Source: Saccoglossus kowalevskii (Eukaryota; Hemichordata; Enteropneusta; Harrimaniidae). From it: a DNA stretch of 23,983 nt. Location of the stretch: positions 1-23,983 of the forward strand of contig NW_003154741.1 of assembly GCF_000003605.2 (NCBI RefSeq). The letters run 5' to 3'. Positions 1 to 23,932 of this stretch are shown here, piece after piece. The notes beneath the pieces were generated by a model. The model made no database searches, had not been told where the DNA came from, and saw nothing but the letters and a program-made list of their open reading frames with translations. Within the stretch, counting starts at the first letter, position 1; every line of letters begins with the position of its first letter. The position numbers were made by a program, and so were the translations under genes.

Positions 1-900
1 TTAGGCTTTGTGTTCTTGCGAACGGGAAGACATTATACTGTTGTATAGTGGACGTCAATAAAATCGAACATAATTCGAAAGTTGTGAAATCATAGTACTG
101 TTTTGGCATTATACGACTTGCAGTTCCCTTTTGATGGATTTTATGTGACGGGCCGTGTTATCGAACTGTATTATCATGTAAATCTGCCCGGGAAAATCTG
201 CTAGCAATGTTTAAATTGCCATTTTCACGCTGTGTATAGAGTCGTCATCTAAGTATGCACAATTGTTCGTCTCGTGTTCCCCGGTGCATTTAAAAATCCC
301 TTTTGAATTTGGGGGACTTTGTGTGACTGACCGTGGTGTTCGTAAACTTTAGTCGAACTGTAGTAGTGTGTATTAAATTACGTTTGTGTGTCAACGAGGA
401 CTGAAAAGTGATTTCTATTTACTTCGTCTGTTATAAATAAACTGTATTAGCTTCCTTCGAACTTCCTATTGCCATCGGGATTATGTCTACTACACTCGGC
501 GGTGTAGTTTGTATCGATCTTCTTGTATGAAACGCACTCGAACCCGGAAATCGACGACAAATCGTGTTGGTCTCGTCACGTTATTTTTTACCTTGTTCTT
601 GACCGCCGTACGCTTGGCTATGAACTTCCACATACCCACGCCTATGGAATAGTGCATCGTGGGTTACTACATTGATCGAGGTGAAACAAACTTGGCTGCC
701 ATAATGCCTGTTGTTCGAATACATCGCTCGTGTTTCTCTTCCTGTCTTAGAGTTTTCTGTGATTTTAGCGATTAGGCTGTGACCATGCACTTAGTCATTG
801 TTGACTGTTTTTCTCGAATTGGTTGATTGTCACAGTAACATACGCTAAGTACAATTAATGGTCCGGAGTTGAACAGTAGTCATTTCTAACATGATTATTT
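1..900. other. upstream flank, slightly GC-richer, no gene recognised
   Basis: No supported coding sequence. Two degenerate copies of a segment lie about 190 bp apart: each starts at CCCTTTTGA (126 and 298), has GTGAC-x-G-x-CCGTG and then TCGAACTGTA. A small hairpin, CTACAC / GTGTAG, lies near 487-505. The 69-codon minus-strand frame at 581-790 shows no domain. Confidence 0.4.
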
Positions 901-3530
901 AATTTAGTTTAATTCCTTCAGTTAAAAATTGAGTTTCCAAAATAAATAAATAATAATACGTACCCTCATGGATACTTCAAGTTTTCATTAAAACAAAGTC
1001 AAAGATCTTGAAATTGCTTTTCTGCCTGTTCGCCAATCCATTGCTCCAAAACACACCTTTAAATACTCTTTTTTTTCCCAGCATCGAGATGGCTCTGCCA
1101 ACACTTGTTTAGCAATGATATAATTTGTTGGCATACATGTTTTAATTAGTACCTATGAAAGGCGTCATGACGTATGCGAGTGTGCGTGATCAAGTGAGAA
1201 TACTCGTCTAGACTATTCAGATTCGTTAAATTATTCTTTTGTTGTATTTAGTTCAAAGGTTGTGTCTTATATTCATTGCCATTGTTCGGAACTGTACAGC
1301 ATAACACAGTAAGGTCAACATAAGTTAATACATACGTTGGTACATGCAGTAGGAATGTTCCTTTATGTACTATGCTGGTTGTAGCCACTGCTTTTGTTGT
1401 ATTTATTTTTACGTTTCTTTTGTATTCAGTGAACAGGTCCATCATAGTCACTCACAAATCGTTGCACAGCATGAAATATGTATTTCCTAGTGAACACGAA
1501 TTGTATAAGTAATAACAGTAATTTAATGTAATATTGTAGACTAAAATTGTCTCGCAAAACATGTGCTACGAAATGACAAAAAAGTGACCAGTTCACTTAA
1601 GTTCGTATCAACTCTCAGTACTTCCAAGATTAGAACCTACATCATTCATTTCTTGGCCGCCTAAATAGCCGATAATAATAAATCCTTACCTTACAAAAAC
1701 ACAAATTGCGACTTAAAATTAAAGTACACAACACAACGCCGGACTGAATATGTGCTTGCTTCCACACAATCACGACTAGTGCAATGTAAACAGCTGCCCC
1801 GCTTTTAAGTTACTTGTTTTGACTTTCTAATACCGACTTTAGAATTCAGCTTTGTATGTACGTTCATTCTCTGTAAAGTAGTCAAAGTAAAGAAACGTAG
1901 ACCCTAGTGTAAGCTTCAATTGCAAACGTTTACAGTGTGTTCCATTAATTCTGGCAAAACATTACACTATGAGGTTAAGACCACTCAGTGCGTCTTCAAA
2001 AGTTACATTGTCGGCAGAAAAATACTGGCTCAACTTTGTACGTGAAATATGCTTTGAATCCAGCAATATAGTTACTTACTGTAACCTGACTGCATAGTTT
2101 TATTTTGCTAATGATAAACACGTAGACAAGAACATCTTCTTTTAAAATTCGTTGAACTTACATTACCCAAATGCGAATTACAACACTGTGCACGACTTTT
2201 TTTTAGTTCAGTACTTTGCTTGATACTAACCTTTTTCGAACACTCTATTTTCGCCTCTTCTAAACGACACGATTCCCTTGGTGAATATGCAAATACATGA
2301 GATACGCTTGTACGAACCCAGGTGCTTACTGCTCTTCCAATCATATTATTTTTCCACCAGATACAATTTAACCAAGCATAAAACCCGCTAACAAATTGTT
2401 TCAGCCTACATGAGTGTTTCCTATTGTTCAATGAGTTGAGAGAATTCTATAAGCGTATTGATATGTTAATGATGTATCACTCTGAATTGCTGTGCATATA
2501 TTTTTTTATTTTTAAAAATTATTTGCCTGTAATTGTAATTAGGAGTAGATATTAGTTTTGGGCACCACTACAGTCGACGAAATTCAAAATGTTTTTTGCT
2601 TGACAAAACATGGCATAATTAACTTGAGATTTATAGCCAAATTTGAAATAGACAATATTAGTTTATTTGGAAATATATTTATAGACACCTTTGTAATAAA
2701 AGACAATTAACTGAAATGAAAGTTAGGTGATGCTGTTTTTGTTGTCGCTGTTGTTGTGTAGTTCATACGCTCAGTTTATGATGGATGGATTCTATTGATG
2801 GTGGTTTATATTTGAAGCATGTTTTTTTTTTCTGATACTGCATTTTTATTTTGTGTAGTGTATGCGTTTAATCAATACATATAGCTTATAAAATTGCCAA
2901 ATGCTTATGTGTGTTTTGAACAATTATTTATATGGGATATATAGGCCTGTGTAGTGTTATTAGCAACCTAAATAAGAAGTCTTCACATTTTTTGAAAAAA
3001 AGGTCATATATTAGTTACATTTGTTGTTCAATTCCTTCAACATGTCAATGCTTGCATATCCAAGTCTACAACTTTGTCTTCAGATATTTTATGCTTAGCG
3101 ATTATTCACCTGACCATTTATGATCGTCAATTTTAGTCATTTCTCTTGTCAAATGTTTTCATAATAAGCTAGCTTGCATCTATTTATTTGCAGCAGTGCT
3201 TGAGATTTAACAGTTATGCATATTGATGAGATCAGAGGAACCCTATCTACTCATGTGACATTCAGGAGAAAAGTGCATCTCCAAAGTGAAACGCGCGATT
3301 TCAGATCAATCAGACCAATAAGTTAAACGTAATTGTTTCAAAATCAAATCACTAATAAAATTTAGTGTAAGAAAGCTTTGCCTATACATGCTATATACCA
3401 AATATGAAGTTATACATTCCTATATTTGCCTAGAAAAAATAATGATGTATCTAGTGTTTGACGAAGGAGAGAACAACAAATAATAAATTCTATAACTAAG
3501 AAACATTCAATAATATATGAATCAAGTATG

Positions 3531-3564
3531 ACAATTGCATGTACTTACAATTGCATGTAAGTAC
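3531..3564. repeat. short palindrome with direct repeat
   Basis: GTACTTACA (3541-3549) and TGTAAGTAC (3556-3564) form a perfect 9-bp stem with loop ATTGCA. ACAATTGCATGTA also occurs directly at 3531 and about 3547. No function assigned. Confidence 0.6.
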
Positions 3565-4317
3565 ACGAAAACAAGTATATATATTTACATACTCTTCATA
3601 TTTTGTAATGAGAATTGATTTGTATTGCTATCTAAATGCATTTATGATGTTTATACATTTAAATTATTACTGAGTTTATTCCATAGCGTAATACCACCAT
3701 GTGTAATTGATTGTTCAAACACCGACATACTGCTTCCATAGCGGTGAAGATTGTTTTCATTTCGTTTGTTTCATTTGTTTGGCAGCAAATTCTTGTCAAC
3801 TCTAAATATATAAATTAGACTAGATGCATTGTATAAATATCCTGTATTTTAAAGCGTTAATTTTATTTTTAAACAACGGTTTACACTTCTTCAATCCACT
3901 CGACAGATAGCTCGAACAACGTTTTTCAACTTATTTATTTTGTGTAATTTGTGTTATGATGCATAATTTCATGCTAAATTAAACTAATTGCTAGTTTATT
4001 TTGCTCTATGTTTCTGTCCAATGAGATTTGATATCACTGATTGAAGTGCTGGGTCGATTTTTGTAATACACCTAGAACAATCCCACCTGTTCCTTCTTCG
4101 TCATTCCCTGGTTTCGAAATAAAACTTACCTCTAAATTCACTCTCATGTATAATATGAAACCCGTTTACGGAGTGCTGAATTTTCCTTCCTCAAATTACT
4201 GTTTGAATCTTGAGTTTGGTAAAACTTTGCTCTCATATTCTCGCAATAAAAGCTCATGAACTACATAAATTTCAGGACGCTTGGTTGTGACGTTTTAACA
4301 ACGTTAAGATCTGTAAT

Positions 4318-4361
4318 GATCATGGCAGTTTGTTTGTGTCTAAATTAGGCAGGCCATGATC
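4318..4361. repeat. short inverted repeat
   Basis: GATCATGGC (4318-4326) and GCCATGATC (4353-4361) are perfect inverted copies separated by 26 bp in the upstream flank. Confidence 0.6.
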
Positions 4362-6413
4362 GGCTGCAATTACATGAGTTTGCACATAGATACAGATCAC
4401 CTTGGGTGAATTTTACCAAAGTGATTTTAGAACAATCATTGTATTTGTTAGACATGATTTCTTTGGTATTGTTCAACCGCAGGGGGTGTTCTGTAAAAAG
4501 AATGTATTGATCAGCTTACAACAGCTTATGCATAAATAACTAGTAATCATTCAGTTTTCAGTCAATCCGTCCGTGTTTAAATGACTATTATTCAGTTAAT
4601 TAAACAACTGCCAGACAACTGGAACGTTGACAATACAATCACAATAACTCCATAGACCAGCCACAGTAGAAAAACTTGACAACGAACACGATATTTTAGG
4701 TACATTAGAACGATTTAGAGTGTCTCACTTCCAACAGCGCCACCATTATAGACATAGTTGTTTATTATTCAGGTTGACGTACAGGCATTGTTAACGACAC
4801 CGTGATGTATTTGGGTGGTCTGAATGTAAAGGTGTCGCTCTCAAACACATCACTATATGTGTTTCTTTCAGAATTGTCACAAGTAAACTTTGACACGGTG
4901 ATAATATTATAAACAATTATGACCAACACGATATTTGTATTGTATTTATCTATTGTAGCACTTGTTGATGTTTTATTGAATTGCTTGTCAAATATCATCA
5001 ACGAGTTGAGACATAACGTATTTGACTCAAATCAATCAAGGCATGTCTGAGAGATGAAATTGAGCGCAAAGACGTACAGTTAGAACCACACAAGTCCGAT
5101 TGATTTTCATGAAGCTGATCATGATGATTATTTAAATGGTTTATTCTTGTATTTTATATATACTCAGTTGACGAAATTAATCAGTAATGTCGAATATGAC
5201 AATGCCATGTGATGAAATTTACGAGACGTTTTATGTCACTTTACGGAGATGATGCTGATACCATTTAACATGGTAACAACATTTTAATACAAAATATATG
5301 TGGAAGAAGGTATATATCAATATATATACATCCGGTAATAGAAGAATTAACCACAACTGCATGAATATCGACAGCAATGTTTCGTAAGGTACAAGTACCT
5401 CACCCATCATGATCGTTATGTTTAATAGTTCACTGCACCAACGAGGATACATTATAAACTTAACATATTAAATAAAATTAAAGCGTTCAAGTGTTACATA
5501 ATAGTGCTGTTGATCTGTGTCGACGTGATAATACAAGTTCATTTCATTTGTGGAGTGGTGGGGTCTAAAAATTATGATAATATATGTTCTTTCAAACAAA
5601 ATATGCATCGTTTGCTGAAGCTGTTGTACGGGCGACCACGAGCAAGGATTGTCCATGTCATTCTATGCTCAATATTTTTTCCTTGGGTGACCAAACATGC
5701 TTACTCCGTTCTGTCGCAATGCCAAAGACCTGAAAGCGAAATGATGCAGTGTGGTTTCTGTACCTTGTTTTAAAGTTTCGCTAGTTTTTTTGTCAATCTA
5801 ATCGCGTAACTCCCGATTGATACATGACGTTAGACTGCAAACACTTCCCGTCCAGTGGGCATTCCGTTTCTTTTCTCTGGCAATTGCCTAGCTTGTTATT
5901 TTTTGTGTTATCGGTCGTGGTGTTCTTATTGATCGCAAGTTGGCGTTTGTTGTTGTTTTTTTTCTCTTAATAGTACATGTTATATTTTTCATACAGCTAT
6001 ATCTGACTCTGATGTCATTTCTGTTGAAAGATTTCCTGAGATTATTGCCAGCCTAAAAGCACTTGTTGATTAAATCGATGAATTGATGAATATGTTACCG
6101 TATCCCTAAATTAAAATACATTGTATTGGTAATAACAACTTTTAATCTAAAAACAAACAGCCCTATTTGTAATGCTAACCCTAAATATAGGGGCTGTATT
6201 ACATTTTGGGTTGATAGTTTACACTGATACAACATTTTCACTGTTAGTAATTTGTGGCGTAATATACGCCAGAAACATCGACCAAGTCTACATCATTAAC
6301 GTCAAATTTAAATAGTGCTATCTTCACATCAGACAAAGCAGAATATGCGCGAAAAATATTTACCCGACCACTGAATTGATTGAATATTCGTTTTACAATC
6401 TGTATGTAACAAT

Positions 6414-6461
6414 TGATCACTTGATCTTATATTAATATACAGAATACTGGGCTACAGGATG
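6414..6461 (+). promoter_or_regulatory. translation start context and possible 5' UTR splice acceptor
   Basis: ATG at 6459-6461 is followed by G at +4 and is the first ATG after an in-frame TGA at 6414-6416. A possible acceptor, TAATATACAG, ends at 6442, so the ATG may sit 16 nt into its exon with a non-coding exon further upstream. No convincing TATA box or initiator was recognised. Confidence 0.45.
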
Positions 6462-6555
6462 GACACGGTCGAGAAGAAGTTTGAACTCCTTATAGAGCAA
6501 CTTTCAAAATGTCTTGAGAATAACACTGCGAAGTTAATTGATCAAATACATGCAG
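6459..6555 (+). CDS. exon 1: first half of DED-like fold
   Basis: Codes for residues 1-32, starting MDTVEKKFELLIEQLSKCL, an amphipathic helix typical of helix 1 of a death-effector fold. Donor GTACAT at 6556. One base (G) is carried over and makes GAT with exon 2. There is no signal peptide, consistent with a cytosolic protein. Confidence 0.75.
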
Positions 6556-9500
6556 GTACATGCAAGGAATAATACAACTACAACAACATATATATATAAT
6601 CAATTTACAGACATATTTGAGTCGCCTTAAAATAATGTTTGTATATCTTCGTGTAATCAGGTTTTATAAATGTTAATGTCATATTACAGTTTGTTTTATT
6701 GTTTTTTTTTCATCTAGATATTGGTATATGTGGTCTTTCAGAATCATTTGAAGGTGTCAGTTCAACAGACTTATTACACTTCCTGAAAGAAAAATGTCTG
6801 TTCCATCATGAGAATCTTCATCTTATGGACCATGTTTTCAAAGAGCTGAAACAAAAAAGAGCATCGAAATTATTGGATATTTTTAAGGAAACTCGGATAA
6901 AGTCTCCCATCATTCAATATTGGTCTGATCAGACTCGTAAGTACACAGATTACTCTATACATTAGTATGTGACGAAATTCCTGCAAAACTGTGTAACCTT
7001 TTTTAGCAATATATTTATGTATTTCCTTTAATATTAAATAGTGTTTTAATGTTTTTTGTTGTTATTAATAGTATTATTAATAATTTTACATCGGTATTTA
7101 CAGTTTTTTGGTTATTTTCATGGATTATGGATCATTATATATCCACTCAATATGTTACTGTTTATTTTACTATTATCAAGTTAAAATTTATTCCTACTAC
7201 ACATTTGTGTCGAACAGTATGTTCTACCTAATATGTGTAATTTTAATCAATTCATATTCTGCATGTTCAGTAAATCCATATATATCCTAACCAAGTCTAT
7301 TGCTGCGAAATGTTGCAGCGCTACTCACGTTGTTTGTTTTTTTCAATATCTTGTGTACGCGAAATATTGCCATATATCAATGTTGCACATCAATTGAAAT
7401 TCATTATTTGACAATATTGTATGCCAATTTTTTCTTTAAGTGAAAGAATACGAATCATTCATGGTGCTTTTTCCAAACGGGAATCTGGATCCAACAATGC
7501 GCAATACATTGGAGAAACTCCGATGTTACGCTAGTGAGAAGACTTCCGCTCCTATAAGACATATATTAGTGACTGGGATTAAAATAAACCAGGGACTAAC
7601 TGTGAAGTTGAATATACCAACAAGGTTCATAGATAAAGTAAATCCACCGTTTTCAGATCCTGATGAGTACTACAAGGAATGGGAATTAGAATGTGTTTAC
7701 TTTTCCACCGGTGGGTAATTTAATTATTGCATATGACTTGTGTTTACCACCATAATACGATATTTTGGAGAGACATTCAGACGAACAATTTCAATAGCTT
7801 CGTTTTAGTCGTATCGGAGCTTGGAATGTTAGGAACAATGATAATACTGGAAAAAAAATGTTTTTGTCTTATTTAGTTTTTTTTTTATTATATTTCCTGT
7901 AAAGAAATGAACTCAATTATATTGAATATATTGCATGTGCATCTTTCCGTTGAGAAACCCAACAACATAGTACAATAGCTTTAAAAACAACCTTTGACCG
8001 AAATGAAATGATAACACTTTGAAGGTGGTCTGAAACTAGTGTCGAGGTCATTTTTATATTGATTTGTTTCGTTTTCAAACAATGATGCCAAAAAGGTCAA
8101 CTGTTTCTCTTGACTAAGTTAAAAAAAAACAAATGTTCTCGAATCAGTTTGGAAAGGGTAAATCAGTTGATTTAAGGAAACGGGCGATTAATTGACATTT
8201 TGTTATAGTTTGATGACATGTACTCCTCCTGAATACCAGTAATAACAAATACAATGTATTATATGAGCTGTGACATACAAATCTATCAGTCCTTTGCTAT
8301 TAGGAAGAACTATGACGTACCTACGTACATTTATATAGCTCGGTTTGTTTTCTACAGTTATTTTAACAACATGTAAAGTGATAATAAAAGTGTTTAACAA
8401 AACAGATTTTTACGTCCAGACATACAAAAATTTCCAAAAGCAGTTTTGATTAGAATGTTTTTTACAAGATTTTTTTCAATTCAATCTCAAATAAAATAGT
8501 CATGTGTTTAGGGTCATATTTTATTTTATGATCAAAGCTTGATGTGCCATGTGTGATTGTACAATGTGTATCACGTGCTAAATTATCTCAACTTATATCC
8601 ATTTATAGATGAACAACACCCTGTAGAACAACGTCTGCTCTGAGGTGTGTAATCATTAATCTTATTTTCTGATTGTTCATGCTGTATATACGTTTATACA
8701 TTGTGGTTAATTGTCTATTACAATCAGAACTGTGTATGATAATGAGACCTAATGGATTTAAAAATAGATTCCCATTGTCGGGCAGGCTAAATGATGAAAT
8801 GATGCATGTCAAATGACATGAAATAACTTTTTCAATAAACAAAACCTGATCATGTGCACAATAGACGATAATATAAATACAAAGATGTCAGTCGAAACAT
8901 AAACTGGCAGAATTTCATTGTCAAGTGCAAAACTATATGTGCAAAAGTGGTTACTATAATGAACTGTTTTTAATGTATTTCTAACACGTATATTTGTTTC
9001 GTCAGGTTGCACCACCGGATCAGACAATTGAGTGAGTAATAATTGATTTGTATCATTTTGTGAAACGCCATAAGACTGTCCGACATCGTTACAGTTACAA
9101 TGATTTATATTAATATTTTATATTGCAGTCGACAACAAATTATTAACAGCGAAAATGAAAAAGTTTCTATTGTACACTTTACTGTTCTCATATCGATGAG
9201 TAATTTCCAAAACAAAACAAAATGTGTATTGAAACTAGTGTTTGCTGGCAAAGAAGGCCGCGAAGGAACGTCACCCTGGACTAAGGACAGTGATATGGAA
9301 TCCGAAAGGTAAATGTCATTTACAGGTTTAAAATAAACATGTTTGTGTGTTACAATTGCAAGGTACTGTAGATGAATTAATTATTCATTGGGTATTAATT
9401 TCACTAGTTTCGCTGATAAGTAAAATTAGCTAAACTCATTGTTTTCCTGACAAATTCGTGAAATTAAAACAGAGTGAATACTAGTATGCTCAAAACATGA

Positions 9501-12500
9501 ACATAGTGAAATTAAATATCAATGAAAAAAATGGTTTTACAGTAATTCATTCTATTAGTTGCAGTGATTAATGGTAGTGCTTAATTTGATTTGATTGACT
9601 GTTTTTTATTATGTAATTACTTCAAGCAGCAGCATTGAAGGGTATTATAGGCTGAATGGTACGATGAAGATTCCAAAGTTTTATCTTAAAAGGGGATGTC
9701 AGTATTACTATGCATTGAGAAACGGTGAATATAACGTTCGGGAATACATTCACACCACCACTTCTTATCATACAGTTGACAGGTTATTGAAATTCGAAGA
9801 TCCTAGCGGTAAGTATTTACCAAGTTATTTTCGTTACTTTTTGCCCCACAATTAGCAGGGGAATGAAACGAGAATCAAACGGGAATTAATTTAATTAATC
9901 GTGATTATATGCAAATGACTAATATATTTATTCATTTTCTATTCTTAATGGTATTTGTTCATGAATTTGCAGTTACATTTACTTTGATATGTTATCACTG
10001 ACTATTTAGATGAAATATGGATCTACAATGACGTAATTCATCCTGGAAAACTAGAGTGGTCACGGCAAAAAGAACATAATAATCACAAAGACACACGACG
10101 TGAGGACTGTGAACGAGCCATGTTAGCGATGCTTCCAAACTGGTCTGGGTTTGTTGTGAATGGGGAGGAAAACAAGGCTAACGAGGCTTTACAGACATTC
10201 AGAAGAGTGGTACAAGGAATCACCGAAACCAAATTGATGAAAAATGGCAAGATAAGCATCAAACCGGTTAAGAATATCCGTAAAGCAAATGTAAGAATTT
10301 GTAATTAATTTTAATATTGAAATGTATATTTCGTCACACGCTGTCAATTATGGTCGTCTAAATAATTTTATATTTGATTTCCACAGATAATAACAAAATG
10401 CTTGGAAGATAAACTTAACTATTTTGATGAAAGAAAAGAACTAGCACACTCCAAGCACGATATCATTTCTTCATTGGCTATTACTGTAATATGCAATGAG
10501 TACAATATTTTCGATAACAAGGAAGATTGGAGACGTATATTAGCTCGGACATTGTTTCACAGTTGTGAAATTCGTAATGATATTGACCAACATTTTGGCA
10601 AAATTAGGTTTGTCGTTTTGATTTTTGTTGTCATTCAAGTGTAAAATTCATGTTTTATGTAATGATGAAGAAAGTATATATACCAAAAAATCTTGAAACA
10701 AAAATTATTGATATCTTATGTAATTGACTTAGATGACATATACAAGTATAATAATAATGAATGTTTTATTGTCAGCGATGACGCCCGAGCAGCCATTGTC
10801 AAACTGTGTAATGATATGATCAAGAGAAAGGAAACAGAATGGGTGTTTACATTGCCGTTGCTGCACTGTGTAACATATAGTTCAAAGTCTACGTCTACTC
10901 TGCCAAGTATAAGTCAACTATCAGATCTACATTGGTGGGGATTATCCGGACTAGATGTTCAAATGTATATTGAAAAAAACTACAAGTATGTCACCAGAAA
11001 TTATTATTATCTACTATATTACCATACAAATTCAGTAGTTGTGATAAACTGATAGTAAGATAGATGTTGTCTAGAGTTATTTCAATATGTTTTATCAGCA
11101 ATAAACAATTGCCAATCAGGGATAGATTAACGTGATTGACGTGTTTATCATCATATTATTATATCATGGTTTTATGAGAAGAATATAATCAGCGTTATGC
11201 ATTCTCATCTATTCGCCGTGAGTGCCTATCTCAAGCTGAACAACACATTGTAGCGTTACAAAACTACTTAATTTTCAACCAATCTTTGGATGTTAACCAA
11301 TTTTATGCTAATCAAATTGAGTTTGGCATATTATCTAACTGTAATCAATCAGTCGGTTCCTATGTTCATCACGACGTATGTGCAGAGCGTGATTACTAAT
11401 TCGTCGTGTTTTGCTTAGGACAATAATATCGCAAACTAAACTTGTTCGTATAGAAAGACATATACATAGCGGATACAATTCACCTAGAATAGAATGTTAA
11501 TATTATATCATTGTAAATGGTCATCAATGTTATTATGTATTCAAGAATATGATGTTTTCTATTATTTAATTTGAACTTGAACTTATTTGAAAATTTGAAC
11601 TATTACACTTTTCACTGATTACGGATATAGTTTTCCAATTGGTACAATGATATTACCAATATTTCAGTGATACCATAATGACGCATTTTGATGAAATTGC
11701 ACAAGCTTTTGCAATGGATGACAGTCTACCCAGGAGTATTGCTTATCTCGAGAATTTGCGTGGTACATCCTTCTCCAAGCTTGTAAACGATGACAGATTT
11801 CCAACACACCTTGTCTACGTCAAGATCAATAACGACATCAAACAAAACAACGACACGCATAAAGAGCGTAAAATGGAGCCATCCTACAAGGTAAATGTAT
11901 ATACTGTACTCATTTGTTTCATTGAATAGTTCAATTAGATTTCAATGTATACACGTTAACATTTTATTTTTTGTAGTTCGATGTCCGAATCAAAAACATC
12001 CTTGGAATTTTAAAGCGCAGAAATATGGACTGCTTTTTAAGCGCTAATCTAACGTAAGTTAACTCAGGGTATTGTGCATCTGTTACAATATTTTGCGTGA
12101 CATTCGATCTTATACTGGTATACTGGTGTAGACTGAACTGGAATATATATAACTAAGTAGTAAGCTGTTTTTGTTTTGTATAACGAAACAACAAACCACA
12201 TTCTGAAATTATATTCGACAAAACAATTTCCAATTAGATATCAGTCAGAACTTGTACCAGAACTTGTATCATATTCACATCAACACTCAGTTCCTTAGTT
12301 TAGACCTTAGACACATATATACTGTTACCTTCACGTTTGTCCTTAATATGGGATCACAAAAGAACATGTGTGACAAGCTTTGAAGGTAATGGCGATTCCC
12401 TGGTATTTATTTTGTGAAATGCTCGTATATACACACATATTGACTCTTTCTTCACATATCTTAGCTGCCATCCTTTGTAGCGCAATACTTAGCATCAACA

Positions 12501-15500
12501 CAAATTGTGACCTTCGTCCTTTGTTCCAAAAATGCATCCAGATGACGTGAGTCGCATGTAGAATAAGTATATATCCCTCTGCAGGTAAATAACAAACATT
12601 CATAAATTCATACTGCGACCTCGGCATTTTACCTCAAAATGTAGTAAGGTCACGCAGGGTATGTGTACGCCAGTTTGTATGTCATTTTTTTCCATATGCC
12701 ATTAAAATTTGTATAACTTAAAACGAATACACATGAACGTGAAATATGAGCATGATCTCCGACCTTTTGTTCCTTGTTCCTCGCTCAAACACTCACGCGA
12801 AGATGTTACCCTAGTTGTACGCCACACATTGGATTACCTTTTAATAAAGTTTAATTCACTTTCAATATAATAGCGATATGAACTCGATTAAAACGCGTTC
12901 CTATATAAAGTTGCGTTTTAATTAGAGTTTAATTAAGCTCAATGACAATGCAATACAACGTAGAATTGCATTTTAATTAAGTTTAATTAAAAAGAATTTG
13001 AATATCCCGTGACTGAACATAGACATGTTTGCGAAGCTTAGGTTTTGTAACTGGCAAAGGTATGGTACAATAATTATTATATTAATATACCAAACCTCCC
13101 CTCTTTACTAAACCTAATCTTCGCAAACTTGACCTAAATTTGATTAAATATTAATATAAATCAGGAAAAATCTCCATGTGTGCGGCTCCACTTGTACAAA
13201 ATGTTCCACTTTGTTGGCGTGTGTCCGGGCCACTGGCTCCACTTCTATACAAACAAACATAGACACGCGCGCATCATTTACATTAACACTATTTCTCAAC
13301 ATTAACAGTGCAAAGAGAATTGATCTATGAGTTTCTTTATTAGTGAACATAAAGATGATATACAAATAGCACATGCAATGTCGATTCAACTGATACATTA
13401 TGTGGTGGATACAAGGTCACTTTCAAAGACGGACATCCTCTCTCTCGTTGACGCGGCGTCGACTAATTGTGATTTGATTGTCTGCCTACGAAAGTATCAA
13501 CATGAGTGTTTTCAACCAGAACTTGAAGATATTGGAAATTGTGTGGATATGATTGGAAAGTATTTTGATTCTACTGAATCTGAATCACCAACAAATACTT
13601 CAGCTCGATGGCAGTCAGTGTTAAATGTGAGTAGTAACGTGAATACGTGATTTTAAGTTCACTGCGATTTCACACAGAAAGCGATATCTCGCTGTGAACC
13701 AATTACATGAAACAATCAATAAACATGCAATATTGAATAACTTATAACGAAAAAGTAATATAAACTCGCCGCATGATATTAAGTCAAACAGTTCAAATTT
13801 AATAGTAACACTATTTTATGGCCTCCTCGCTCTTGATAGTCCATGTAGTGAAACCTGAATAACGCGATACCATCGATTAAGATTTATCGTTCCTTCCGAT
13901 ATATCATACTAATTGACTTGATACTTGGTGAAGTAACATTTATACTATAATATATGAGGTTTATACGAGGATACCTCATAATAACTTTATTATACATCGT
14001 TTGCTTCCAAGGAGACATCATGAGAATGCCGAAATCCAAAATGTCCAATCAGCGAACTTCTTTGTGTGGAGTCAAATCCAAAACAGAATCAGCAAACTTC
14101 TTTGTGTGGAGTCCGGTCAAACCTTGGTGGCAGCCATGTTTGTTTTTATAATTAGATGACGCTTACGCGCGTAATCATTCTATATTCGGTATTCGCATTT
14201 CCTAATATGGTAGGATAAAAATACCCCGTAACATACCGCAAAATTGCGGCACACTGTACCTTATGGCGTCACAGTGACAGATGTATAATAATAGTTTATA
14301 CTATAATGGTTCACTCATACTGATTCTGTAGATATATATACTAGTTTGAATGCATCTTGACATTATTATAATTTGATTACAGGACTGGAATAGACTAGTC
14401 GAAATTAAATTTGAGGTAAAGGAGATACATGATAGAGTAATAGAAGCTTTTTACAAAATGATACAAAATGTGAGTTGTATAACATGTCCATGTGTTATAT
14501 ACACACCCGATTTCCGTCATAATCGTGAAATAGAATTTAACATTTGATGAACTAGTTAAATATGTTGACAATAAATTCAAATTATAATTTCTCAACAGCT
14601 TCCTGTGAGAGATATGTTCGATATGTTTTTCTCTTGCGATCAATCTAAACGTGGACCACTGCAATCGAAAATAGCTTCCAGGGCAATTGAAATATATAAA
14701 GATAATAAAGAGGTACGTATTACGTATGGTTAGTACAAAACATACTATATTAGCATTGTCAAAGTCTGCGTGATCGGTGGTGTGTTATTCTTCGAGCTAA
14801 AAGTTATCGATCTTTATTTTGTCTTACACCAGCAACCATCAAAACAATAATAAGCAATTTCATAGTAGTGCGTGATGGAGCCATCGTATCAATGAGCGCA
14901 TATCCATAAGCGGTGCAATTTGTAAAATCGTCCCAATCACACAGTTGTGTGTTTATACAAGATCTATAGATTTTAGTGTTTAATTTTGTTTTTCTGTGCC
15001 AAGTTGTCAGTTATTTGTGTGAAGATGCATTTCTTAAAAATACAAATACATAATGTGAAGCCTTGCGTCCTGTAAAGTTAACGTGTGCGACTGGTTAAAC
15101 ATTGAATATCAGTAATTTACTGTTCTGTTTCAACTACGAATAACATTATTTGTCTTCTAGATTGTTATTGAAATGTTCCCATCAAGCGAAGAATCGTCAA
15201 TGACACATGGTCAGTTTTTCTCATGCGCTCTTGAGTTAGATGTACCAGTTGTTGGTAGAATTCCAGACAATAAATTAGTGAAACACCTTTTGACAAGCAC
15301 AGTACTGTTGCATTATATACAACATAGTGATGGTAAGCACTTTATATATTTACAATCATAGATTTTTGTCATACTGCCAATGAACACTGTTTTCTCGCGT
15401 ACCGCTAACCAGTTACTGATTTTTTTAAGTCCAGATTTGCGCTTGAATATTCAGAATATTATAAGTGGAGAAAGATCTAGTCGGTTTGTTCACTAGACAG

Positions 15501-18500
15501 CGTTTCTTTAAAAATAAATACCATCACGTTCAATATCACTTATTTGTGTTTGACTGTTTTTTTTTATATATAACTAACTAATATCAAGTACAAGCATTCC
15601 TCGCATTAGTTACAAATAAAATGTATTATTATACATATGTCACCGTATCATTTTGTCTAAAGCTTCTATTACTCTATCATCTATCTCCTTCACCACAAAA
15701 TTAATTTCGACTAGTCTATTCCAGTCTTGTAATCGAATTATAATAATGTCGAGATGCATTCAAACTAATATATATAACTACAGAATCAGGATGAATGAAC
15801 CATTATAGTATAAACTATTATTATACATCTGTATACACCGTAACGTCATAAGCTACAGCGTGCCGTAATTTTGAGGTATTTTACGGGGTATTTTCATCCT
15901 ACCATATTAGGAAATGCGAATTCCAAATATGGAATGATTATGCGCGTAAGCGTCCTCTAAAAATAACAACAAACATGGCTGCCACCAGGGTTTGACAGGA
16001 CTCCATACGAAGAAGTTCGCTTATTCTGTTCTAAACATTTTAGATTTCGGCATTCCCATGATGTATCCTTGGTAGGAAAAGATGTATGATAATAAGGTTA
16101 TTGCGAAGATACCTCAAAGTATGCACTCAGACAGTATGCTGTCGCATCGACCTCTGCTTCGCGTCGGTCGATACTGCCGCTGTACTGTCTTTGTGAAAAC
16201 TTTGAGGTATCTTCGTAATAACCTTATATTATTATATACTTGTCACTGTATTGTGATGAGGTACAGCGTGCCGTAATTGTGCGTTATGGTACAGTAATGT
16301 TGCATTTTACCATATTAGGAATTGCGCATTCCGAACGATTACACCATATCTAAGATGGCGGGCGCTTTTGAAAAGGCGGAAAAGTTTATCATTTTGGTCA
16401 GCTCCACGCTTTCTATATCAAGCGGTTGGTTCCAAAATATGTATAATATTAATGCTACATCAATCACTGTTTTGAGTCGGTCGATATTCTTGCTCTACGG
16501 TCATTGTGCATACTTGAGAATATCCTCGTAATAACCTCATATACAGTGATGATTGTTGCTGCGGTTATTGTTTATTTGCTGCAGTTGTTCATAAGCAAAG
16601 CTGATGAACAACAACTTGTGCTATTATAATATAAAAATAGTGAACTGTTAATATTTTGGATATCATTTCATGTACCATATCAGTTCAAAGCGTTTTCTGT
16701 AATAGATGGGATTTAATAGGATTTTATGTATTACAATGTAAATGATAAGTATTTAATTATTTTTCAGAAATACCCACGTTATATGAGTCAACACAGAAAA
16801 TAGTGCAAGATGTAAAAAAAGTGATCAAGAACCATCATGAAGAATGCTTAGATGGGCAAATTAAAATAAATATTCTCCGACTAATCACTCAACATAAAAG
16901 TGAATGGTCCAAGTTAGTCCATTGGAGTGTGTCTGGTGAAGAATTTGTTGATCCTGATCAATATCTAAGCATTCGAAAACGGGAACTAGAAGCAGTTGAT
17001 AATTTCCGCAAAAGTCTTAACGAATTTGACACATTCACACGGCGAATAAACTTTACAGGTAATACAAATGACTATCTAAAGACATACAATTGCATACCAA
17101 TACAACGTAGTACATAATTTTTTGGGCAATTTTCTTGTTTTTTTTTTAATCATTTCGCAGGTAATACAAGTTGTCTAAGCAGTATTCGAAACGCATTAAC
17201 CGGGGATTGTCTTGAGAATAGCAGTATTAAAGAAATAGTTAGTGTCCAGACAGTTAGTGCCGACATTGACTCATCTGAAGCAGCCGCCCCACTTTCATTC
17301 TCAGTGTCTTCCCCATTGTTCAATCCAAGTCGTATCTACGCCAATGATATCACTCCTCAAGTTGTAGAAATACTTGAAACAACCGGTAGCGCTACAGGGT
17401 TCCCACATGTATTCATAAGTATATGGGACATAATTAGCATTGATTATCCAAGCAATATTTTACTTGACGAATTTGCTGATCTATATTTAGGTGATATTAA
17501 AAATGCGCTCAAAAAGTTAAGAAATCAATTGAAATCGAGTGAAATAGTGTTAGGTGATGTGTGCAACTATTTCCAAGCAATCAAAAATGACGCAAATAAA
17601 ATATTGAGTCAATTGTCCGCACTGCTCTCAAACGAAATATCTGACGAAAAACTAAAAATCATTCAACACAAGATTACGTACTGCTTCAAGATCTTAGATG
17701 TCAGAACTGCAGCGAAAACGGTCAGAAAATGCCAACAGGAACTTGCGTTGAGAGGTGAATTTCCAGGACTCAAAGAAATGTGTGCTGAGGTAAATGCGAC
17801 TGTGTATCTGTTATCTTGTAATTAGATTGTCTAATAAGCATTAAAATTACAAAAACAAATTATACACCTACGCTTTCCCTAATACACAGCATGTATCAAT
17901 TAAATTTCTATGTTTACATGTCGCCATATCTTAATACATAATCTGTTACTTCACATACAATTACCGAAAATACGGGGTTATGAATAAATATAACTGATAT
18001 TTCTATTTTAGAAAAACGATTTGGATCAAATGGAGTTATCATTTTTAACTGACGACGTCATTGCATCCATCGATAAGCTTATGAAAGTTGACAGTAAAAA
18101 GTGTGAAGGTCTGCAAGAATTTCTGTCAAATGGGGAAGTAATACATTGGTCTAAACGAGTGACTCAAGGTAAGTATCTGTAAAATAACTGTATATCTGAA
18201 ATATTTATTGGTAATGTCGAATATATTTTGACAGTCAAGATATGGTTGTATTCTGCTCGTTTACTTTTACATACATTATTGTTCCATTTTAAAACCTGGA
18301 TACCGGGTACATAAACTGAGTTTGTATGACTCTATTAACTATTAGCGATAAATACACTTAATCACTGTCTTGATTTCAGCCTCAACTTATTGATGACATT
18401 TTACTATATTTTATTTGTTTATAACGATATTATATTTTCATAGGATCAATCGCTCAACTTCGTCAATTTATCAGCCTTATTTACCAGTGGGTTGACAAAC

Positions 18501-21500
18501 ATGAGATTCCGAAAGTTAGAACCTACCAATCCGCTGTAGAAGGATGTGTGCCGTTGATGAACGTTCCAGTCGACGCTGATATCCATCAATTGCTACAGTC
18601 ATGTGAAGAATTATGGGAGTCTATTAAATTGAACCATACATTGCTGCAAAACCTAGTATGTTCTGAACATGTCATTTCAAACATTGCCTCAAACATATAT
18701 ACCGTAATCTAGTGACATAAATATTGTGAACAGTTCATTATTAAACCTTATTTCACTTTAAAGTTACATTTTGCAACGTTTCGTAATGTAGTGAAATTGT
18801 TATCAGTATTGTGAAAAATTTGGATAACTCAGTTTCTGGGTATAGAGAGCGCCTCCTATATTAGTAGTTTTGGTAATTTATTTCCCATCATCATTTGCGG
18901 CCCTGTCATCTTTGAGTTGGTTACTTTTTCTCCCATCCCTACCAAAGACCCATTTGTTTAGTTTATTTTCATTGTGTTTCTCTAACACTATTATACTTGT
19001 ATTTAGTTAAGCCTGGGTGCTTTTGTATTATTTTTCTGCCAATATGTTCTAGTGTAGTTTGTTTCACTTATTTGTATTCAGTCTTAGAATAATGAAAAAC
19101 TGCAGTGATGTTTACTATTGAGTACAAACACTCTAAACGAACATGTCTTGTTTTGACCTGCATTATAATATATCACTATCGAATGGATCCGTGATTACGT
19201 TTATGCATTCCAATAGAATCTAATATGTTACTATATTTGCAGAAAGACAGTAATGCAAATAGAAAATGGTTACAGGATCTCTGGGAAACACACGTCAAGC
19301 CAAGTGAGCAATGTAAGCGTGTAATAAAGTCCATAAATGAAAGAGGGGTGTATTACATTAAACAACTAGAAACACCCTCGAATCAAATATCTGATTATAT
19401 TGAGCTGCAAATTCCAGCTGAAGTAGATGAAACGTATACATCTAAATCCAATACAAATACAGAAGTCGTTGCTGGAAACGATGTGAAATTAACATTGCGT
19501 GAGATAATGGATTATCGAGACCGAGTAGCTCTAATGATGGCTGACCAAGATAAAGACAACACCGATTTTGAGTGGTTTATTCAAGTAAGCATTAACATCA
19601 ATTATAGTGTAATCTTTTATATCTATAAACTAAATATTCGATATAATTTGGTACATGATTGACTACAATAATCTTTTTTATTTTATTGAACTTCATTTCA
19701 ATTATTTTGTTGACCTGATTATTGATAAAAAACAAAATTGTCTCATAACAGGTGCTAGATGAGTTGATGTCATTGGTTAGTAGTATTATCATTCTTCAAG
19801 ACGATGGTAGTGACATATTTCAAACATTCGAAGCCGCGATTATTCATGAAAATGGAGTAAATAAGTTTGTCATACAAATGGCTGGTGAAAAATTCAAAGG
19901 TACGGGGGCAACAGATGCAGTATTAGCAGAGATGAATGAGTTCCTTAAGTCATGTATTAAAGAGTGGAAGATGAGATTAAAATGCGTACGCGATTCATTT
20001 TACAACTTAAACCACTTCACATCAAAACAACTGTGTTTTCTCCGAAAAGAGTTAAATAACATACTGGAGCCTAAAGATGTTATAGATGTCCCTGGAAAAC
20101 GCATCATTTCAGAAAATGCCACTGAAAGCAAGATTCCCCAAGAAAACACTAACAAGTCAGCAGATGTCCATGCCCTGTCGAGTATGCTAACACACATTAA
20201 TGACACAATAGACGATGACATTTTATGGAAAATCGTAAATGGTTGTATGAATCTTGTAAAAGAGAGGCCAGAGTTGCTGAGCCAAGGTGGTATATATCAA
20301 ACGCAGGACGTTCGACAACTTACAATAGAAGACGAAAAAGAACGACATGAGTTTTCACAGTTTATTGAAACAATGATGGAGTTGGATGAAGTAGATGAGC
20401 GCATCGCAAAAGCAGCATTTCAAGCGAGTGAGGGAGACATAGAAAGAGGACATGCATGGTGCCTGACATGTAATGAAACACAGCTTCAGGAGATGCTCAC
20501 CGAGTTTTGTAAATCTAAATTTGCTGACATAGACGATTTGAATACTGGGTCACCTTTACAGGATGCAACGAGTGACATATCATCGGAAAAAGTCTATACG
20601 AGGTGAATATAATTGTGCTAAGATCTGTCATTTGTAAGTGATTTTATTCTTTTCGTAATTCAGAATTGTTATCATATCTGATTACATTGCAGTCTATTGG
20701 TTAAAAGTCTGTCAGCGTTCTGGAGTAAGAACATTAACACACATCAGGGCCAAGTTAGTCTTGAATTTCTTGGAATGGTATTAGCTGAATTATGCTCTGA
20801 AGGTAGGATGTAGTACATGATGTATCATGTATAGCTAGCTGCCTTGGAATTATAGAAATAGTTTATTCATCTTGATCGGAATGTGTTCACACTTTAGCGT
20901 GCTGACGCTATTTTGGTTTTCCGTGGAAGCTTTCAGCGGTCTGTGAGGTGAATAAGAGAACTATTATTTGATGCGCACATTAGACTATTATTCTTAATTA
21001 TGAAATGGCTTTTCACTTATATTAGATATTGTTAGAGCAAACTTCTCATATGTGATATATTTAAATAACTGAGTTATACATTTGTGAGCTTATTTTTCTC
21101 CTAATCACAGCTGTCACACTCGAGGGGTATGACGTTTTTCATAACATCATCCCTGGTATACCAAATTCGTGCAGTGTCACTGAAAGTAAGTGTTTTCTGT
21201 TTATCTATTTAAAGAAATATAACAATTTATGATGTTCGTTTTCCCTCGGTGTATTATGTATCATTTATATTATACGTATTTTCGTTTAAAGTATTCGTAA
21301 ATTTACTTCAAATATTTGTATTAAACGGCGATGGTGCCTTGTTTTACTGTTATTTTAGACGATGTGCTAAATACACTATTATCGTTATACACCACAAATG
21401 GAAAAGTCTACTTTCCTAATCGAGACCAAATCCTGTTATGTAATGAGAAAACAACTAAAGAAGAGGTAAGATGCATATGTGTACGTGTTTATTCACCTTT

Positions 21501-23012: not shown

Positions 23013-23648
23013 GTAAACAATAAATATTTGTTACCTCGCTTGGTATATTGTATCATATTCCTAAAAAATAATGACAAGTTAAGTGAACCCTTATTATTTT
23101 GTAATCAAAATACGACAATTAACTTTTCGATTTTAACATTGTGTAATTCGTTTGTCAATATAATTTCTGAATTTTCTTGTCAAGTTCAATTGTTTATAGT
23201 TTTTTCTAAAAAATAAATGTGTAAAATGTTTAGAACGCAACGTTTATTGTCGTGTTTTGCATATAAAAACTGATTAATATGACTTTCACAATTTTTGACG
23301 AGTATGTACATCATGTTTTGATAATCATAGTTGCACACTTGCTAGTTGTGTACTGGTAGGTTGTTTCATTTATCTAGGTAGAATGACTGAATTTATTGTT
23401 TCAAATTGTCTACTACTGCAGAACGAGCACTATGAATATCTTTTTCGAGGCTATATTATCCAAGGTTGATTCTTCATCTTAGATGCATTGACTTACGGGT
23501 ATAGATTTAAACGAATTAGAGGGTAGTCAAGCATAATGTTTGTCAGTGTCATCGGTTCAAGTTTGTATCGTGCTTTGGTCGTTTAAACTAAAAAAGAGGA
23601 GCTCTCATTCAAACGTGCTGGGTGTCAATTTCGTCACTCATACTCAAG
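23013..23648 (+). other. region after exon 28: intron, gene end or intergenic
   Basis: AT-rich, with AATAAA at 23019-23024, another AATAAA near 23211, and the possible short exon at 23422-23464. No stretch here reads as the RNF213 segment expected after exon 28. Confidence 0.5.
23422..23464 (+). other. possible short exon after exon 28, terminal or paralogue fragment
   Basis: A good acceptor (TTGTCTACTACTGCAG) precedes 43 nt ending before GTTGAT. Joined to exon 28 it gives four residues (ERAL) and a TGA at 23432-23434, which would end the gene. Read in phase 0 it gives NEHYEYLFRGYIIQ, reminiscent of the aromatic strand of the CBM20-like domain. Neither reading can be confirmed. Confidence 0.3.
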
Positions 23649-23932
23649 ATATTCAAATGCAAGAATGAAGGCGATTCATATCACTGTTATATCCTTTCTT
23701 CAATAATTGATTTTCCTGAGGGGACAGAAGTACCAATCCAATTTGTTCTATTATATGTAGGTGGGCCTAACATTGGTTTTGATGACAAAACATTCCACAG
23801 TGAACCCATTCAAAGAGTGTACCATCATCTTAAAATCTATAATACGAAGAAGGAAGAGCTCAAACATTATGAATTCAATCTCTCAAAGACCAGAGTTGGT
23901 GATAAAAAAGACTGCATGGAAGTACTTATCAA
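23649..23932 (+). CDS. coding exon of a second gene or tandem paralogue, beta-rich domain (partial)
   Basis: Open frame from 23592 through 23933, no Met, ending at a strong donor (GTAAGTAA). The likely acceptor is CACTCATACTCAAG at 23648; the true start is uncertain. It codes IFKCKNEGD, YHCYILSSIIDFPEGTEVPI, QFVLLYVGGPNIGFDD and a basic tail. Strand spacing resembles exon 3 (HILVTGIKINQGLTVKLNIP) and exon 4 (HFTVLISMSNFQNKTKCVLK) of the same gene. Its phase 0 start does not fit exon 28, which carries one base. The most economical reading is the N-terminal part of a tandem RNF213-like copy, but the similarity is weak. Confidence 0.55.

Follow-up and report, generated by a model that had tools for sequence, protein, structure and literature searches.

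A candidate death-effector-like module at the N-terminus of tandem RNF213-like genes in Saccoglossus kowalevskii

Introduction

The death effector domains (DEDs) of FADD, caspase-8, c-FLIP and PEA-15 are carried by an adaptor or a caspase. The module described here is alike in length, aligns nearly end to end with them and has in common the hydrophobic pattern and an asparagine before helix 5, but it has no Pfam match and no RxDL motif and is placed on an AAA-E3 enzyme. The DED-NACHT receptors are not known to have a ubiquitin ligase part. Such receptors, in which the DED is likewise borne by a large protein, there a NACHT receptor, are described for amphioxus, sea urchin and Nematostella in a portion of PMC2575513, whilst a portion of PMC8998645 describes lophotrochozoan RLRs whose N-terminal DED was acquired by domain grafting. 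In those RLRs an N-terminal death fold has likewise been exchanged on an innate sensor, the body there being a helicase and not a giant E3 ligase. As presented in these portions, the two cases indicate that animal lineages have grafted DEDs onto other sensors (PMC8998645, PMC2575513). Among the matches listed from the open-licence literature we recognised no description of a DED on RNF213.

Residues 1-398 of human RNF213 are termed unstructured in a section of PMC12440826, and a section of PMC11549300 places the CBM20 at residues 378-515. Sections of the latter also describe rate-limiting initiation and cooperative growth of RNF213 coats, propose an extra driving force for this growth, such as oligomerisation, and report that the protein lacking the first 367 residues is still recruited efficiently to two bacteria and less so to a parasite vacuole (PMC11549300). 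The mouse protein is given as mainly monomeric in solution in a section of PMC7311170.

Gene structure

The window, by which we mean the whole stretch of 23,983 nucleotides analysed, corresponds to positions 1-23,983 of contig C4409 (333,069 bp) in a genome of 572 Mb, and has a G+C content of 34%. Chaining of GT-AG exons gave 28 stop-free exons and then a 29th at 23761-23932. The resulting RNF213-like gene model extends over 6459-23932, encodes 2115 amino acids in 29 exons and is stop-free with consistent phases. The exons were picked by eye, so that phase agreement by itself is no independent proof of the model. Its parts are as follows.

Exon 1, 6459-6555, + strand: 97 nt, supplying residues 1-32 and ending one base into codon 33; aligned with helices 1-2 of the DED-like domain.
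Exon 2, 6718-6936, + strand: 219 nt, supplying residues 33-105 and ending one base into codon 106; aligned with helices 3-6, with a short helical tail in addition.
Exon 3, 7441-7714, + strand: 274 nt, about 91 residues, following the DED-like module and preceding the CBM20-like region.
Exons 4-6, 9129-10290, + strand: weak collinearity of exons 5-6 with the CBM20 region of human RNF213, exon 4 assigned by position only.
Exons 7-18, 10387-18655, + strand: RNF213 stalk region by position only; in-phase open exons without a PDB match, all kept in the paralogue.
Exons 19-21, 19243-20802, + strand: RNF213 linker region; the PDB match spans exons 19-20.
Exons 22-29, 21111-23932, + strand: AAA1 region with the P-loop-like SSSPGLGKT; the PDB match spans exons 23-29.

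The nearest in-frame stop ahead of exon 1 is at 6414, 45 nt upstream. Exons 1 and 2 follow the GT-AG rule, have phase 1/1 and are joined in frame to exon 3. The sequence-only reading had placed two exons with good splice sites and matching phase at 6459-6936, and its coordinates were exact. With a splice-site matrix derived from the other sites of the model, the donors at 6555 and 6936 are equalled by 3.1% and 4.7% of regional GT dinucleotides and the acceptor at 6718 by 2.6% of AG dinucleotides. The exon 3 acceptor at 7441 (TTTAAG) is weak, its score being attained by 49% of all AG dinucleotides, and none of the 29 donors scores lower than that of exon 3. The codon scores of exons 1-3, left out of the training, are similar to those of the remaining exons.

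Comparison with RNF213

Exons 23-29 and exons 19-20 match RNF213 in the PDB with E values of 5e-35 and 1e-7, respectively (phmmer); a 1202-residue N-terminal query gave no RNF213 match there. Residues 265-350, encoded by exons 5-6, are collinear with the human CBM20 region and are the best of seven hhalign segments, at a probability of only 1.5%. Among 125 open reading frames (ORFs) scanned, that of exon 5 takes first place (E 0.094). Pfam gave no match, and the score with an HMM of the CBM20 region did not exceed that of shuffled sequences (2.0 bits against 5.3). For the approximately 91 residues of exon 3 no vertebrate counterpart was found.

Human RNF213 segments, typed by hand and used as tblastn queries, locate further AAA segments of the window gene at 33-43 kb of C4409 (13 pieces, 38-61% identical to human) and those of a tandem paralogue at 109-118 kb. 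The paralogue also has a cysteine pattern resembling a RING, recognised by eye, near 124.2-124.4 kb; its RZ finger lies at 127.5 kb. On the window gene side neither RING nor RZ was recognised up to 49050. Runs of N occupy C4409:23984-25478, directly after the window, and 49053-71743, the expected place of the window gene's E3 end.

The locus resembles vertebrate RNF213 in the linker, AAA1, a weak CBM20-like match and further AAA segments in the same order, to which the paralogue adds, also in order, the RING-like pattern and the RZ finger. It differs in having a compact helical DED-like module and one extra exon in front. This module most likely occupies the place of the unstructured N-terminus of human RNF213, a single extra exon separating it from the CBM20-like region. 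That the frame runs on from exons 1-2 into an RNF213-like body, as first read from the sequence, is borne out by the stop-free 29-exon model, the PDB matches and a paralogue with the same exons.

The tandem paralogue

The paralogue was found on the same contig by searches of the animal's own genome. All 29 exons are kept, encoding 2112 amino acids without a stop and sharing 78% identity with the window gene. In the projection each exon end had to have its AG or GT no more than 12 nt away, and no shift was needed for 27 of the 29 exons. The first three are identical to those of the window gene in length and phase, with no indels.

Paralogue exons 1-3, C4409:86601-86697, 87166-87384 and 87801-88074.

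Between the copies, exons 1-2 give a dN/dS (ω) of 0.53 when read in frame, with a bootstrap interval of 0.29-1.07 and 4% of replicates at or above 1; either shifted frame gives 1.07. They are the fastest of six exon groups compared, at 65% identity and ω 0.53 against 0.37 overall, and include a run of residues over helices 4-5 that is identical in both copies. Exon 3 (7441-7714), weak in its splice sites in the window gene, is kept in the paralogue, and at 81% identity the two copies differ less there than in the DED-like exons (65%).

Similarity of the N-terminal module to death effector domains

The helix pattern of residues 1-105 had been read as that of a DED. A profile of nine hand-typed human DEDs gives these residues a score of 30.8, which at default gap costs is reached by 14 of 3000 shuffles and by none of 381 windows of the protein body; under two other gap settings the query is reached by 40 (looser gaps) and 2 of 3000 shuffles. 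Held-out human DEDs score 66.7-167, all nine above the query, and the best non-DED death fold scores 24. Against the corresponding human DED HMM the query has 10.2 bits (6 of 3000 shuffles) and the paralogue 11.6 bits (0 of 3000). HMMs were also built from 47 of the 67 DED places in the animal's own genome, seeded by the HMM of the hand-typed human DEDs. With two versions of these the query obtains 12.5-12.6 bits and the paralogue 13.6-15.3 bits. Out of 3000 shuffles none reaches the query, whereas the paralogue is reached by one with one version and by none with the other; no body window attains either score.

Profile-profile comparison aligns residues 8-86 of the pair with positions 1-77 of the 79 in the own-genome DED profile, over 76 columns. 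Column shuffles reach the score once in 400 and never in another 1600, none of 127 body windows does so, and the hhalign probability for DED is 38.5%, a measure on which one shuffle obtained 62.8%. Reversal of the pair lowers the score from 23.2 to 11.7, but cyclic shifts still give 14.3-20.3, indicating that much of the DED signal is local, mainly in helices 4-5. In a scan of the forward ORFs in 11 kb (window 1-11000) the DED HMM matches the exon 2 ORF best of all 125 (E 0.0015, 11.9 bits), and the same scan at the paralogue places it first of 129 (E 0.015, 8.8 bits). Overall, profile likeness to DEDs is above chance and above that to other death folds, with the exception of a global-mode hhalign run in which Death scored higher (13.9 against 10.3).

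Curated models do not extend this picture. The Pfam DED, CARD and Death models, proposed earlier as a check, returned no match; in particular the DED model (PF01335) matches neither copy, and C4409 is absent from the genome's 67 DED places. No curated family recognises exons 1-2 above cut-off, PDB searches gave no DED match, and the single query aligned to the human DEDs in hhalign has a probability of 2.7%. RxDL is the charge motif of DEDs. It is absent from both copies here, and among 47 DEDs of the same genome it occurs within the last 18 aligned residues in 20 and is missing in 27. A Pfam RST match at residues 7-33 was rejected, having 17.5 bits against a cut-off of 22.7 and no equivalent in the paralogue. 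Of the other death-fold profiles Death comes nearest, its score being reached by 47 of 1000 shuffles, and the CARD and PYD scores are unremarkable; identities as CARD, Death or PYD were set aside, the scores being otherwise within or near those of shuffles and body windows.

AlphaFold, run without an alignment, predicts four longer helices and one of four residues for exon 2 alone (mean pLDDT 50) and helices for a model that reads through the intron (mean pLDDT 43). Structure prediction, also put forward earlier as a check, was in this form uninformative, giving helices at low confidence. The DED reading of the helix pattern stands in part, with likeness beyond chance in profile tests and no recognition by any curated DED model. 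On these comparisons residues 1-105 are probably a divergent DED that falls outside Pfam's membership rule, and the DED reading as a whole is plausible.

Alternative explanations

Two questions should be addressed in interpreting the locus. Do exons 1 and 2 belong to the RNF213-like gene? If they do, is the fold that of a DED, and might it still function as one? With respect to the former, exons 1-2 could form a separate short gene, ending at a stop near 6965 if the donor at 6936 is unused, and be followed by an RNF213-like gene with its start inside exon 3. The weak exon 3 acceptor (7441) and the presence of an ATG inside exon 3 would fit. However the RNF213 body of the paralogue is preceded by the same three exons, in the same order and with the same lengths and phases, the exon 3 acceptor there is TTTTAG and the exon 2 donor is GTAAGT in both copies; between 6901 and 7441 there is no exact AATAAA and one ATTAAA, at 7033. 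The same exons 1-3 ahead of the paralogue's RNF213 body make a separate gene very unlikely, and assignment of exons 1-2 to the N-terminus of the RNF213-like protein is well supported at the level of sequence.

With respect to the fold, the module may be a small helical bundle unrelated to death folds, for example a lineage-specific stalk or capping bundle, whose DED likeness reflects amphipathic-helix periodicity. We regard this as possible though doubtful. It would account for the lack of any curated family above cut-off, the missing RxDL, a query score below all nine held-out human DEDs, the uninformative structure models and the retention of 14-20 of a score of 23 by cyclic shifts of the pair. 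It is less easily reconciled with the failure of body windows to reach the DED scores (0/381 and 0/127), the drop to 11.7 from 23.2 on reversal, a match running from residue 8 to residue 86, with DED as the clearest family, and the top rank of exon 2 among forward ORFs in both copies. Assignment to CARD, Death or PYD instead seems decidedly improbable. These folds are akin to one another, the stretch KRASKLLDIF resembles a CARD on inspection, and Death exceeded DED in one global hhalign run and was reached by 47/1000 shuffles, but the hand-typed CARD, Death and PYD profiles otherwise score near shuffles and body windows and Pfam gives no match. The module might also be a former DED, now a degenerate relic without homotypic function, in keeping with exons 1-2 being the fastest of the six exon groups (65% identity, ω 0.53 against 0.37) and with the absence of RxDL. 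We consider this rather unlikely, as neither copy has an indel or a stop and the run over helices 4-5 is identical.

Proposed function

The interpretation we favour, with moderate confidence, is that one of two tandem RNF213-like genes has at 6459-6936 the coding sequence of its N-terminal module, and that this is most likely a divergent DED-like death fold. For this module we infer a death fold, homotypic assembly and an immune role. The CBM20-like and stalk surface would find the pathogen or a damaged membrane, and the DED-like module might then gather further copies or recruit other DED proteins, for which the 67 DED matches in the genome are candidates. Such gathering or recruitment could drive cooperative growth of a coat or couple coating to cell-death signalling, and the AAA core and RING/RZ E3 end, the latter seen in the paralogue, would ubiquitylate the target. 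A death fold near the CBM20-like region could in this way supply an oligomerising force for RNF213 coats. The observation, in the section of PMC11549300 cited above, that human RNF213 without its first 367 residues still reaches two bacteria efficiently counts against this explanation. A stronger proposal, that a functional DED is fused to a complete RNF213, that its polymerisation drives the coating of invaders and that it wires RNF213 to the caspase-8/FADD network, we put forward only tentatively.

RNF213 coats grow cooperatively on very different pathogens, and a natural RNF213 fronted by a death-fold-like module would allow a direct test of how they do so. If the interpretation is correct, a giant ubiquitin ligase joins the helicase and NACHT sensors among the recipients of grafted death folds, and crosstalk of ubiquitin coats with caspase signalling is suggested.

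Other loci and a possible origin of the module

Further RNF213-like loci occur on contigs C51, C2615, C1647 and C3729, from which the family appears expanded in this genome. The N-termini were examined at four loci on three of the five contigs (the C4409 pair, C51 and C1647), leaving out C2615 and C3729. The C51 gene is like the window gene in its RNF213 AAA core and CBM20-like exons, the latter identified by eye and weakly supported by an HMM. Over parts of the AAA core it is nearer to human, four of nine pieces being 64-76% identical and the others 41-46% when compared with the hand-typed human segments. It differs in having, upstream of the CBM20-like exons, an open frame of about 760 codons that is polar and, by eye, probably disordered. 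No DED-like exon was detected at C51 at the sensitivity used (best 5.9 bits, E 0.1) or at C1647 (best 5.7 bits, E 0.36); the positive control for this ORF scan is exon 2, first in both C4409 copies at 11.9 and 8.8 bits. Among the four loci the DED-like module is therefore seen in the tandem pair only. One scan each of viral contigs and genome contigs confirmed no relatives outside the animal's own genome. The simplest reading of these sequences would be an N-terminal swap in a lineage that had duplicated.

The genome is rich in death folds, with 67 DED, 55 Death and 13 CARD places (E ≤ 0.001, six-frame search). Of the PF01335 places 52 of 67 are over the cut-off, and C129, C359 and C3952 have several DED matches each.

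Other features of the window

A segment of exon 20 (19752-20602), MELDEVDERIAKAAFQASEGDIERG, is UBA-like by its pattern, which Pfam did not confirm. An inverted repeat with arms of 188 nt, 93% complementary, is present at 14277-14464 and 15645-15832. One arm overlaps exon 12 (14383-14469), so that an antisense copy of this exon seems to sit in intron 14, and further repeats at 15836-16542 adjoin that copy.
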